DNA of 38,961 nt from Bacteroidota bacterium (GTDB taxonomy: Bacteria; Bacteroidota; Ignavibacteria; SZUA-365). Numbering within the stretch: the first letter of the stretch is position 1; the number at the start of each line of letters is the position of its first letter. The position numbers and the translations under genes were made by a program. The stretch spans positions 1 through 38,961 of the forward strand of contig JACZJN010000120.1 of the NCBI GenBank assembly GCA_014860565.1. The letters are read 5' to 3'. This document shows positions 30,476-38,078 of this stretch, piece after piece. The notes below the pieces were generated by a model. It searched no databases, was not told where the DNA came from, and saw only the letters and a program-made list of their open reading frames with translations.

Positions 30476-30643
30476 GAGCGGGAGGAGCGGAAGGGACGGG
30501 AGGAGCGGAAGGGATGGAAGGAGCGGAAGGGACGGGAGGAGCGGACGGGACGGGAGGAGCGGAAGGGACGGAAGGAGCGGAAGGGATGGAAGGAGCGGAA
30601 GGGACGGAAGGGACGGAAGGAGCGGAAGGGACGGGAGGAGCGG
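30476..30643 (+). repeat. Purine-rich 9-bp tandem array
   Basis: About 18 contiguous 9-bp units of two alternating kinds, (G/A)AGGAGCGG and AAGGGA(C/T)GG, giving an 18-bp higher-order period with small variations. There are no spacers between units. It forms the immediate 3' untranslated region of the GT2 gene. Frames through it give collagen-like or (on the other strand) leucine-proline repeats and are not believed. Confidence 0.92.
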
Positions 30644-30645
30644 AA

Positions 30646-34085: not shown

Positions 34086-34718
34086 CTACGCCAAGTCTCC
34101 CGCAGCCTGTACTCCATGGGTGAGGGAGTCGGCGAAGACATCGACATGCGGGGCGAGGATCGAGCGCATCGAGGGTTGGGATATGCCCCCGATCATTACT
34201 TTCACACCCGCGTGCGTGGCGCGGAGCTGTTCGAGAAGCTGCAGCGTGGCGTCGAGGCAGCTGAGGGATTTCATCGTCAGGCAGAGAAGGTCGGGTTTGT
34301 AGTGGCCCACGGCCTGAACGATGTCATGCACGGGGACGGAAGAACCGTAATGCACGACACGCCAGCCGGCTTCCTCGAGCGCATTGGCCATGAACAGCGA
34401 GGCGAGGTCATGGTGTTCGTCGGGCACACAGCCGACCATTGCGGTCCTGCCGAGAGTAGCCTCCGGCTCCATGGTCACGGCCTTGTAGGCGAGAATCTGC
34501 CGCACGACCTGTGAGGCCACGTGTTCCTCGACGATGCCCTGCTCGTTTTTCTCCCAATGGTCGCCGAACTGCACGAGTGCGGGAATGAGGATGTCGTTAT
34601 ACAGAAGTTCGTTGGGCAAGCCCTGCTGCTCCCATTCGCGCACGAGCATGAAACAGCGGCGGCGGTCGCCCGCACGAAGTGATTCGACGAAGAGGCGAAG
34701 CTGTTCCTGTATGATCAT
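34086..34718 (-). CDS. B12-binding sensor protein, CarH-like, without DNA-binding domain
   Basis: A 210-residue cobalamin-binding protein. Residues 1-85 form the helical cap (B12-binding-2 type). They carry Trp55-x9-Glu65-His66, the W-x9-EH signature known from CarH/LitR photoreceptors, where these residues cover the upper face of adenosylcobalamin. Residues about 90-205 form the Rossmann-like B12 domain, with DEHHDLA (His103 fits the lower axial ligand of the E/D-x-H-x-x-G motif), HYGSSVP, LCLTMKSLSC and MIGGISQPS. No MerR-type DNA-binding domain is present, so output must pass to a partner. The ATG overlaps the upstream gene's stop (ATGA), naming that helical protein as candidate. Methyltransferase corrinoid proteins are an alternative, but no methyltransferase is near. 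Confidence 0.8.
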   Translation of the reverse strand: MIIQEQLRLFVESLRAGDRRRCFMLVREWEQQGLPNELLYNDILIPALVQFGDHWEKNEQGIVEEHVASQVVRQILAYKAVTMEPEATLGRTAMVGCVPDEHHDLASLFMANALEEAGWRVVHYGSSVPVHDIVQAVGHYKPDLLCLTMKSLSCLDATLQLLEQLRATHAGVKVMIGGISQPSMRSILAPHVDVFADSLTHGVQAAGDLA

Positions 34719-35143
34719 GCGCCGACCTCCCGCGCCTGGCCAAGCTCACGAGCGCGCAGGCGGCGCAGGGCGGCGCAGATGTCGTCGCTGCCCGCGTCCT
34801 CGAGAAACGCGTGCACCGCGTTTCGCATGCCCGAGATCATCTGGGGAATGAACGCTGCGGGAAATTCCCTGCTTCGCAGAAAACCCCGCAGCCAATCGAG
34901 GTACTCGATCAGCGCGGCCGGCAACTGATACTTGACCGTTGCCAGGAAATTTTCCGTGAAGATCTTCACACATTCACGCGCCAGGCGTGCCTTCTCGGTA
35001 TCAGCAAGCGTGCTGGCGAGAACATCGCAGCGGAAAAGGTGGTCGGTGACGGCCGTGACGATTTTCTCTTTCTGCCGTGCGAAGGCCTCGATGTCTGCCG
35101 CGGCGATGGAGCTGAACGAAAGCGTTTCGGCGGAAGGGTCCAT
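34715..35143 (-). CDS. Unrecognised small helical protein coupled to the B12 sensor
   Basis: A 142-residue soluble protein with no signal peptide or transmembrane segment. It looks all-helical: about five amphipathic helices between 10 and 135, including LARECVKIFTENFLATVKYQ and ALIEYLDWLRGFLRSRE. I do not recognise a family with confidence; a faint likeness to RsbR/globin-type sensory helical domains is only an impression. It precedes and overlaps the B12-binding gene by ATGA, so equal expression and physical interaction are plausible. The open frame continues upstream to 36034 antisense to citDE, but ATG 35143 (MDPSAETL) is taken because the upstream part mirrors a solid gene on the other strand. 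Confidence 0.55.
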   Translation of the reverse strand: MDPSAETLSFSSIAAADIEAFARQKEKIVTAVTDHLFRCDVLASTLADTEKARLARECVKIFTENFLATVKYQLPAALIEYLDWLRGFLRSREFPAAFIPQMISGMRNAVHAFLEDAGSDDICAALRRLRARELGQAREVGA

Positions 35144-35238
35144 GATTCTGCTGGAAAGTGAGAGAATGGGGTACTCGATGATAACAAGGCGTTGTGGCGC
35201 AAAAGTTTCATTCCTCGGCAGAATTCCCGCCGTCTTGC

Positions 35239-35246
35239 TATATTTG
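35239..35246 (+). promoter_or_regulatory. Possible TAnnTTTG box before the citrate lyase genes
   Basis: TATATTTG fits the -7 box perfectly, 62 bases before the CitDE start. No TTTG lies 19-21 bases upstream, so activation by a regulator, or chance, are both possible. Confidence 0.35.
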
Positions 35247-35308: not shown

Positions 35309-36532
35309 ATGAACATGAAAGCAGAAGCCGGCCGCAGCGGAAAAAGCGTACGCTCGGACTGCCGTGTCGCAATTACGCTGCGCGAAAGCGGCGGCATCGA
35401 TCTGCAGCTGACGAGCAAGGTGGAATCGCTCTACGGCAATTCCATCCGCACACTCGCTGCTGAAGTGCTCGCGAAATTTGAAATCGAACACGCGGAAGTC
35501 ATCATCGAAGACAGCGGTGCGCTGCCGTACACCATCACCGCGCGCATTGAAGCCGCGGTCAAGCGTCTTCGTCCCGAAGAAAGCCGCGATTTTCTTTTGC
35601 CTTACAGGGAAGGACTCCGACAGTCCACCGCGCGCGATCGCTTCCGCCGTTCGCGGCTGTACCTGCCGGGCAACGATCCCAAGCTGGCAATCAACGCGGG
35701 TATCCACCGTCCCGACGGCGTCATCCTCGATCTGGAGGATTCCGTCGCACCGCCGGAAAAAGACGCGGCGCGCATTCTCGTGCGCAACACGCTGCGTGAG
35801 GTGGACTTCTACGGCGCCGAGCGCATGGTGCGTATCAATCAGCTGCCTCTTGGACTCGCCGATCTCGACGCGATCATCCCGCAGGAACCGAATCTTCTGC
35901 TCATCCCCAAAGTCGAAACCGCGGCACAGGTCGTGGAAGTCGTCGACCGTATCGAATCCCTGCGCGCGAGCTTCGGTATCGAAGCGCCGATACACTTGAT
36001 GCCGATTATCGAAAGCGCCAAGGGCGCCATCCACGCCTATGAGATCGCATCAGCGCATTCCTCGGTCGTCGCCCTCGCGATCGGACTTGAGGATTATACC
36101 GCCGACATCGGCGCCGAACGGACGCTGGAAGGGAAGGAGAGCCTGTGGATGCGCGGCGCCGTGCTCAATGCAGCGCATGCCGCCGGCGTGCAGGCCATCG
36201 ATACTGTGTACTCCGATGTCAATGATATGGAAGGTTTGCTCGCCAGCGTCCGTGAAGCGAAATCGCTTGGCTTCAACGGAAAGGGCTGCATTCATCCGAG
36301 GCAGATCCCCGTCGTGCATGAGGGTTTTGCACCGGAGGCAAAGGAAATTGAGAAAGCGAAGAAAATCGTTCTGGCTTTCGACGAGGCGCAGCGGCAAGGA
36401 CTCGGAGTCGTATCTCTCGGTTCGAAAATGATTGATCCCCCCGTTGTCAAACGCGCTCTGCACACGATCGATCTCGCGCTCCGCTCGGGAATTCTCAATG
36501 AAGGATGGAAGGAGGAAACAAATGAAGGATAA
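35309..36532 (+). CDS. Citrate lyase gamma-beta fusion (CitD-CitE)
   Basis: A 407-residue protein joining two citrate lyase subunits. Residues about 8-95 match the acyl-carrier CitD: VRSDCRVAITLRES places Ser16 where the CoA-derived prosthetic group attaches, followed by GIDLQLTSKVESLYGNSIRT and the EDSGALPYTITARIEAAV end. Residues about 110-400 are CitE of the HpcH/HpaI TIM-barrel family: RSRLYLPGND, DGVILDLEDSV (metal/CoA acidic residues), PIIESAKGAI, LAIGLEDYTADIG and GKGCIHPRQIP. CitE splits citryl-carrier thioester to oxaloacetate and acetyl-carrier. CitF follows with an 11-base overlap. In most bacteria CitD and CitE are separate genes. No citC, citX or citG accompanies them here. Confidence 0.88.
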   Translation: MNMKAEAGRSGKSVRSDCRVAITLRESGGIDLQLTSKVESLYGNSIRTLAAEVLAKFEIEHAEVIIEDSGALPYTITARIEAAVKRLRPEESRDFLLPYREGLRQSTARDRFRRSRLYLPGNDPKLAINAGIHRPDGVILDLEDSVAPPEKDAARILVRNTLREVDFYGAERMVRINQLPLGLADLDAIIPQEPNLLLIPKVETAAQVVEVVDRIESLRASFGIEAPIHLMPIIESAKGAIHAYEIASAHSSVVALAIGLEDYTADIGAERTLEGKESLWMRGAVLNAAHAAGVQAIDTVYSDVNDMEGLLASVREAKSLGFNGKGCIHPRQIPVVHEGFAPEAKEIEKAKKIVLAFDEAQRQGLGVVSLGSKMIDPPVVKRALHTIDLALRSGILNEGWKEETNEG

Positions 36533-38078
36533 GCTTGTCCGCAATGCAGCGGGACGCGAAGTCGTTACTGAAATCAACGGCAACCCGGCGGTCCCGTATC
36601 TGGGAGTTGGGAAATTCAAACCTGAGGGACGCAAAGCGGCACCTCCGATTCCGACCTGCGCCGACTATCCGGCTGACGGCAATAAGGTGCTGTCTGATCT
36701 GAAGACCGCGCTGGAGAAAGCAGGTCTGCGCGACGGCATGACGATCTCCACGCACCACCATTTTCGCAATGGGGATCTGGTGGCGAACCGCATCTTCGAT
36801 GCCGCTGCCGAACTCGGCGTTAAGGATTTGCGCTGGTTCCCTTCCGCTTCCTTCCCATGTCATGAACCAATGATCCGTCATCTCGACAGCGGTGTGATTC
36901 ATCATATCGAGGGATCGATGAATGGTCCGCTTGGCGATTACGCCTCTTCGGGAAAAATGCGCGGCCTCGGCGTGCTGCGCTCCCACGGTGGACGCTATCA
37001 GGCGGTGCAGGATGGCGAGGTGCACATCGACATCGCTGTGATTGCCGCCCCGACTTCGGATCCCTTCGGGAATTGCAACGGCGTCAACGGTCCTTCAGCC
37101 TGCGGAGGACTCGGCTTCGCCCTCGCCGATTCTCAATACGCCGACAAGGTGATCGTGGTTACCGACAACCTTGTCCCTTTCCCTTGCGTCCCCTGGCAGA
37201 TCATGGGCAACAATGTCGATTCAGTCGTCGTCACGGAGAAAATCGGCGACCCGGAAAAAATCGTCAGCGGTACGACGAATATTACGAAGAGTCCCGACCG
37301 TCTGCTCATTGCCGAACTCACGGCACGCTTTGTTGAAGCTGCCGGGATTCTGCAGGATGGCTTCTCCTTCCAGGCGGGAGCAGGCGGGACGGCGCTGTCC
37401 TTCGCCCTGTTCCTCCGCGACATGATGCGGGCGAAAAATATCAAAGCCCGCTTCGTGCGTGGCGGCAGCACGCAGTATCTCGTCGACATGCTCAACGAAG
37501 GACTCACCGACTACATCCTGGATGGACAGACGTTCGATCTCGCTGGTGTGCGGTCAATGCGCGACAATCCGCATCACATCCACACCAATCCCTTCGTCAG
37601 CTACAACTACCACAACAAGGGCAACATCGCCTCCATGGTAGATGTGGTGGTGCTGGGCGCGACAGAAGTGGACGTGCACTTCAACGCCAACGTCGTCACG
37701 CACAGCGACGGACGCCTGCTGCATGGCATCGGCGGATGGCAGAACTGCCTGTTCTCGAAATGCACCATTCTTCCGATTCCCACATTCCGCGACCGCATTC
37801 CTGTTATCGTTGACGAAGTGACGACGCTCTGCGGACCCGGCGAACTGATCGACGTCATCGTGACCGAACGCGGTATCGCCATCAATCCGCTGAGGCAGGA
37901 TCTGATCGACCGTACGAAGAATTCAGGACTGCCGATCCGCTCGATTGAGGCGCTGAAAGACGAAATCGAGTCCATCTGTGGCGGCGCGCCCGACAAGCCG
38001 CGCTTCCGCGACAACGCCATCGCCGCCATCAAATGGGTCGACGGCACCGTCATCGATATTGTAAGGCAGTTGGAATGA
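36522..38078 (+). CDS. citF: Citrate lyase alpha subunit (citrate:acetyl-ACP transferase)
   Basis: A 518-residue CoA-transferase-fold protein that exchanges acetyl on the carrier for citrate, the first half-reaction of citrate lyase. Features include GMTISTHHHFRNGD, WFPSASFPCHEPMIRHLDSGVI, APTSDPFGNCNG, QAGAGGTALS and the C-terminal VTERGIAINPLRQDL, all typical of CitF. Length is close to E. coli CitF (510). The ATG at 36522 is supported by GGAGG at 36511-36515; the frame opening at 36432 lies inside citDE. It overlaps the CitDE stop and ends one base before the convergent lipoprotein gene. Confidence 0.95.
   Translation: MKDKLVRNAAGREVVTEINGNPAVPYLGVGKFKPEGRKAAPPIPTCADYPADGNKVLSDLKTALEKAGLRDGMTISTHHHFRNGDLVANRIFDAAAELGVKDLRWFPSASFPCHEPMIRHLDSGVIHHIEGSMNGPLGDYASSGKMRGLGVLRSHGGRYQAVQDGEVHIDIAVIAAPTSDPFGNCNGVNGPSACGGLGFALADSQYADKVIVVTDNLVPFPCVPWQIMGNNVDSVVVTEKIGDPEKIVSGTTNITKSPDRLLIAELTARFVEAAGILQDGFSFQAGAGGTALSFALFLRDMMRAKNIKARFVRGGSTQYLVDMLNEGLTDYILDGQTFDLAGVRSMRDNPHHIHTNPFVSYNYHNKGNIASMVDVVVLGATEVDVHFNANVVTHSDGRLLHGIGGWQNCLFSKCTILPIPTFRDRIPVIVDEVTTLCGPGELIDVIVTERGIAINPLRQDLIDRTKNSGLPIRSIEALKDEIESICGGAPDKPRFRDNAIAAIKWVDGTVIDIVRQLE

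Follow-up and report, generated by a model that had tools for sequence, protein, structure and literature searches.

The window analysed here is a stretch of 38,961 nucleotides from a Bacteroidota bacterium (contig JACZJN010000120.1). Its reverse strand carries two genes that share an ATGA overlap. The 5' gene (34715..35143, minus strand), the first of the pair, encodes P0002, a photoglobin homologue of 142 residues with a phycobiliprotein-like globin fold, and the 3' gene (34086..34718, minus strand) encodes P0001, a B12-binding photoreceptor-type protein of 210 residues made up of a helical cap and a Rossmann B12 domain. The coordinates and the overlap agree with the preliminary description, which had reported a sensor gene overlapped by that of a 142-residue helical protein. 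The two genes occur together in 9 of 9 genomes, as a linked pair of one family and as separate genes in all nine. A promoter-like element, GAAACT-N16/17-TGTT (35183..35209, minus strand), lies 66 bp 5' of the photoglobin ATG; it is present in one copy per locus at all nine loci including that of G007, preceding the photoglobin gene by 64-74 bp. Outside the pair, the perfect -7 box of citDE, TATATTTG (35239..35246, plus strand), is followed by the divergent citD-citE fusion (35309..36532, plus strand; Pfam ACP/MdcD and HpcH_HpaI) and by citF, the citrate lyase alpha chain (36432..38078, plus strand; Pfam CitF, E 4e-140), whose true start is probably near 36522. The citD-citE fusion is conserved across the family. 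Elsewhere in the window, an 18-bp tandem repeat of about 10 copies (30479-30645) lies between two genes, one glycosyltransferase-like and the other threonine dehydratase-like.

The Pfam search of P0001 returned B12-binding_2 (PF02607, E 7e-10) and B12-binding (PF02310, 3e-15), with no further Pfam domain and no match to an HTH family, and the protein begins at the B12 cap, which bears out the earlier claim that the sensor is missing its DNA-binding domain. The best phmmer matches were CtMerR (4e-18) and SasPcob (2e-14), methyltransferase corrinoid proteins ranking behind them, and a Foldseek search with the AF2 model (pLDDT 92) placed CtMerR, SasPcob and TtCarH on top, with TMq up to 0.90. In the predicted pocket, Trp55 (34554..34556, minus strand) is the adenosyl-stacking Trp of the GxxW signature element, Glu65-His66 (34521..34526, minus strand) forms the EH element, and His103 (34410..34412, minus strand), within E101-x-H103, is the predicted lower axial cobalt ligand, aligned with His108 of SasPcob and His204 of CtMerR. 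W55-x9-E65-H66, H103 and G125xxxP129 are invariant among the nine P0001 homologues; the W, EH and H are invariant across every compared CarH/photocobilin-type B12 domain, and MetH from the same genome has F at the Trp site and VL at the EH site. The Trp55-x9-Glu65-His66 layout with His103 is thus as the preliminary description gave it, and it is not due to chance. The published light signature consists of GxxW, EH, GxxH and GxxxP (PMC11796333), and three of these elements are found in the P0001 family. In the GxxH element His103 is kept and the Gly position is D, E or N, so that a strict signature search would miss this family. The position of CarH His132, the residue of the bis-His light state, is taken by the invariant Glu56, and the His132 counterpart is also missing from CtMerR and the photocobilins. 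By homology, P0001 is a B12 protein of the base-off/His-on type. The adenosyltransferase PF01923 was detected in every pair-bearing genome searched, indicating that adenosylcobalamin (AdoCbl) can be made from cobalamin in these organisms.

Searches with the P0002 sequence against Pfam, NCBIfam, the PDB and plasmids gave nothing significant, and the first hint of its identity was a weak match to AbPcob (E 0.79), later confirmed by profile comparison. With the AF2 model of P0002, made from the nine-member family (pLDDT 91), all of the 50 best PDB matches in Foldseek were phycobiliproteins or related bilin-binding and near-infrared fluorescent folds, at E values of 0.007-0.04 and TMq of 0.60-0.70 that indicate a match of fold and no close kinship. 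The family profile aligned over its full length with photoglobin domains by hhalign (E about 5e-8, score 43-50), in comparison with scores of at most 19 for 100 column-shuffled templates and of 11 for an unrelated B12 family. Trp84 (34892..34894, minus strand), the counterpart of the corrin-contacting Trp296 in SasPcob and of Trp289 in AbPcob, is invariant in 42 of 42 photoglobin domains, and Glu57 and Trp84 are common to 15 of 15 photoglobins in one alignment. Of the unrecognised helical protein in the preliminary description, the length and the helical nature therefore stand, while by fold and profile the protein can be recognised as a photoglobin homologue. It had also been suggested to be an output or docking partner; as a photoglobin, P0002 is likelier to belong to the sensor, whose cap or docking surface it would form, than to be an output with no relation to it. 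Since the partner's fold and family profile match bilin-binding folds and photoglobin domains, the pair is, by homology, a two-gene photocobilin, composed of a B12 photoreceptor domain and a photoglobin. The photoreceptor-type B12 domain, the true two-gene unit and the earlier idea of a split light- or B12-responsive switch are all supported. Two conditions named beforehand as refuting that idea, membership of a methyltransferase clade and a lack of co-occurrence of the two genes, both turned out in its favour. Pfam, in which no photoglobin model matched, would miss such systems.

The bilin pocket of P0002 differs from that of the known photocobilins. In Glu57-Cys58 (34970..34975, minus strand), Cys58 occupies the site of the biliverdin-contacting Asp270 of SasPcob, as placed through an ungapped stretch back from Trp84. 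This site is C, S or T in 9 of 9 focal members, N in the other split pairs, and D, E or H in the fused photocobilins save for an Asn in Ilyobacter. The site of SasPcob His137, which forms a salt bridge with biliverdin, is D or E in all nine focal members. Heme oxygenase, searched as PF01126, the one heme-degradation family covered, was found in none of 100 relatives, including all pair-bearing genomes, and in 3 of 14 control genomes. However, the photoglobin-bearing genomes G054 and G085, in which the Asp is retained, are likewise devoid of PF01126, so that the missing heme oxygenase is weak and unspecific evidence. Judging from these residues, the globin of the focal family has probably lost biliverdin binding. 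Alternatively, the two genes might make a complete two-chromophore photocobilin whose globin uses other residues to hold biliverdin or a different bilin and reaches red light. Consistent with this, the AbPcob bilin-pocket positions W84, L89 and R92 are invariant in P0002, with F94 and F98 at the Val299 and Val303 sites, Glu57 beside the Asp site is invariant, and AbPcob with a His in place of the Asp still binds some biliverdin (PMC10979010). The retention of W84, L89 and R92 also leaves room for a different ligand. Nevertheless, the replacement of the Asp270 and His137 counterparts in all nine members and the absence of PF01126 from every pair-bearing genome make a second chromophore unlikely.

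Relatives of the pair occur both fused and split. The globin is fused N-terminal to the B12 domain, in the pair's own order, on Skermanella, Azospirillum and Ilyobacter plasmids and also in many genomes of the focal class (G054, G533 and others), and the actinobacterial fusions have the reversed order, as in SasPcob. At eight loci in the focal class the two genes are separate and the B12 gene precedes the other; such pairs accompany a histidine kinase in G360, G261, G674, G080 and G532 and as second copies in G002 and G003. In the tree, the B12 domain of P0001 joins all globin-coupled B12 domains (97/90), and the MerR-CarH types and MetH fall outside this group. The focal family forms a well-supported clade of its own in both the B12 tree (100/99) and the globin tree (97/98), although the long branches in both leave the branching order of the groups unsure. 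A histidine kinase gene adjoins the photocobilin genes at all 15 of the class loci whose flanks are long enough, G504 at a contig end being left out, versus 0 of 9 focal loci, two of which have short flanks, and no kinase elsewhere in G000 has the N-terminal part of the relatives' kinase. The class-wide operons (L127-L133, L120-L125, L071 and L072) combine a photocobilin, either fused or split, with a histidine kinase of the HisKA type, in many cases also with response regulators, and they represent a probable B12/light two-component system. On Streptomyces plasmids (L076, L085 and L086), the photocobilin gene is flanked three times by a gene for a PP2C (SpoIIE/RsbU-like) phosphatase on one side and one for a STAS protein on the other. 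In the anaerobe Ilyobacter polytropus, a plasmid (L079) encodes a fused photoglobin-B12 protein with Asn at the Asp site, and its gene overlaps a GGDEF gene.

Homology, predicted fold, residue conservation, gene linkage, a conserved promoter-like element of the pair's own and the absence of an adjacent kinase are observed at the locus. The best explanation, which we consider reasonably probable, is a split photocobilin that relies on B12 only and exerts its effect by protein contacts, for which we infer AdoCbl binding, complex formation, a light response, bilin loss and a contact output. The fusions of globin and B12 domain in the pair's own order serve as Rosetta stones for this reading, and the standalone photocobilins and the Myxococcales gene pairs give it published precedent. 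The D, E or N at the Gly of GxxH, Glu56 at the CarH His132 position, the unspecific lack of PF01126 and the absence of the kinase found with the relatives speak against it. P0001 would bind AdoCbl in the base-off/His-on mode, with His103 below and the adenosyl group surrounded by Trp55, Glu65, His66 and Pro129. In the dark, P0001 would dimerise head to tail, and P0002 would dock on the B12 domain at the corrin edge via Trp84, like the fused globin domain of SasPcob. Upon illumination, the Co-C bond would be broken and the adenosyl group lost, resulting in loosening of the dimer and of the globin interface. The surface thus freed or rearranged would work on a partner through protein-protein contact. 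As the globin is probably without biliverdin binding, the unit would sense green light by B12 only. More tentatively, the bilin-less globin of split photocobilins might be a regulatory subunit that has its own gene and can detach, so that light would switch how two different proteins assemble, and not a homodimer with built-in output; we hold this to be possible but somewhat doubtful.

The same fold would also do for a sensor of AdoCbl supply, or of the redox or alkylation state of the corrinoid, in place of light, with the globin as a co-regulator. The adenosyltransferase in the pair-bearing genomes and the loss of the Gly from GxxH are compatible with such a role. In contrast, the W, EH and GxxxP elements, tied to light sensitivity in CarH and the photocobilins, are invariant, so we regard a sensor of this kind as rather improbable.

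The intergenic region bears on the regulation of the pair. GAAACT-N16/17-TGTT was matched 9 times versus 0.6 expected, with no other match in 325 kb of strand-bases, and its shape and position are like those of a promoter of the ECF-sigma type. The other photocobilin operons of the class are not preceded by it. A regulon search with the element in G000 gave 3 matches versus 2 for a control pattern, which gives no ground for claiming a regulon. A second GAAACT-N-TGTT copy (L137 and L138), conserved in two species, in G000 (C139) and G001 (C15), lies upstream of an Rrf2-type regulator, between it and the divergent gene for the C-half of metH; this copy may be chance. The methionine synthase of G000 seemingly consists of two open frames (C195:21907-23691 and C139:44287-46143; L089 and L090) of 631 and 629 residues, the second carrying the B12 and reactivation domains.

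The preliminary description had proposed citDE-citF as a target of the pair, pointing to a perfect -7 box and a missing -33 box, and TATATTTG is indeed found with no TTTG 17-23 bp upstream. Regulation of citDEF, directly or via an unseen DNA-binding protein, would fit the divergent adjacency in 8 of 9 genomes, including G004 without an isocitrate dehydrogenase (IDH) neighbour; in G007 the operon is about 13 kb off. However, citDE has its own TATATT box, which is kept in G006 and G012, where the pair is absent, and in G007. The conserved element keeps a fixed distance from the pair's gene, its spacing to the citDE box varies (35-70 bp), and citDE genes that do not adjoin the pair are not preceded by it. 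Moreover, IDH and an NlpC gene belong to the same conserved block, so the synteny of pair and citDE is not specific; in G006, IDH adjoins citDE with no pair between. The contig of G009 ends inside citDE, which makes its lack of the pair uninformative. Therefore, the co-location is real, whereas citDEF regulation by the pair is unsupported and, in our judgement, quite unlikely, because the citDE box is kept with or without the pair and the element is tied to the promoter of the pair's own gene.

Finally, it is extremely improbable that P0001 serves a methyltransferase system as its corrinoid protein, the helical protein being an accessory subunit, a candidate suggested by a weak NCBIfam match to MtgC (5.7e-12, 46 of the 370 bits needed) and rejected from the phmmer nearest relatives and the tree placement, since CarH, CtMerR and the photocobilins score higher in sequence and fold, DxHxxG is replaced by E-x-H-x-x-A, the tree groups P0001 with globin-coupled B12 domains outside the methyltransferase clade, and no methyltransferase is seen in the neighbourhood.

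The reading as a B12-only split photocobilin may be set against the known systems. The definition of photocobilins, which dates from 2024, describes one polypeptide that carries two chromophores and has its B12 domain at either terminus, and standalone members regulate an enzyme in trans (PMC10979010). Here, a natural two-protein photocobilin occurs alongside fused and oppositely ordered versions in one class, most with a histidine kinase. This class-wide set is suited to finding out if light output depends on the globin when no bilin is bound, and for optogenetics the pair might offer a natural heterodimer controlled by light. An arrangement in two genes has precedent in itself, as Myxococcales have separate B12 genes beside BBAG-2 biliverdin globin genes (PMC10151467); the differences here lie in the lineage, the loss of residues that bind bilin, the absence of the oxygenase, an operon devoid of a kinase and the private conserved promoter-like element. 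Similar to the photocobilins SasPcob (8J2W/8J2X) and AbDPcob (8J2Y) (PMC10979010), the focal pair combines a CarH-like B12 domain with a photoglobin and shares W-x9-EH, E-x-H, GxxxP and the corrin-contact Trp. It differs from them in consisting of two polypeptides with the globin gene first and no output domain, in the replaced Asp270 and His137 counterparts, and in that no heme oxygenase was found. The BBAG-2 pairs, compared by their description (PMC10151467), likewise encode a globin of the photoglobin lineage and a B12-binding protein as neighbouring separate genes, but those are accompanied by a bilin reductase, a heme oxygenase or both, and their biliverdin binding is proven, whereas neither enzyme adjoins the focal pair and PF01126 is absent. 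CarH and CtMerR have the same B12 domain fold and adenosyl-pocket residues, whereas P0001 is without the MerR DNA-binding domain, has Glu56 in place of the bis-His His132 and has a partner globin. The split photocobilin and histidine kinase operons of the class also keep the B12 and photoglobin genes separate; in contrast to the focal pair, their B12 gene precedes the globin gene, the Asp site holds Asn and a histidine kinase is adjacent, and they stand apart from it in both trees.
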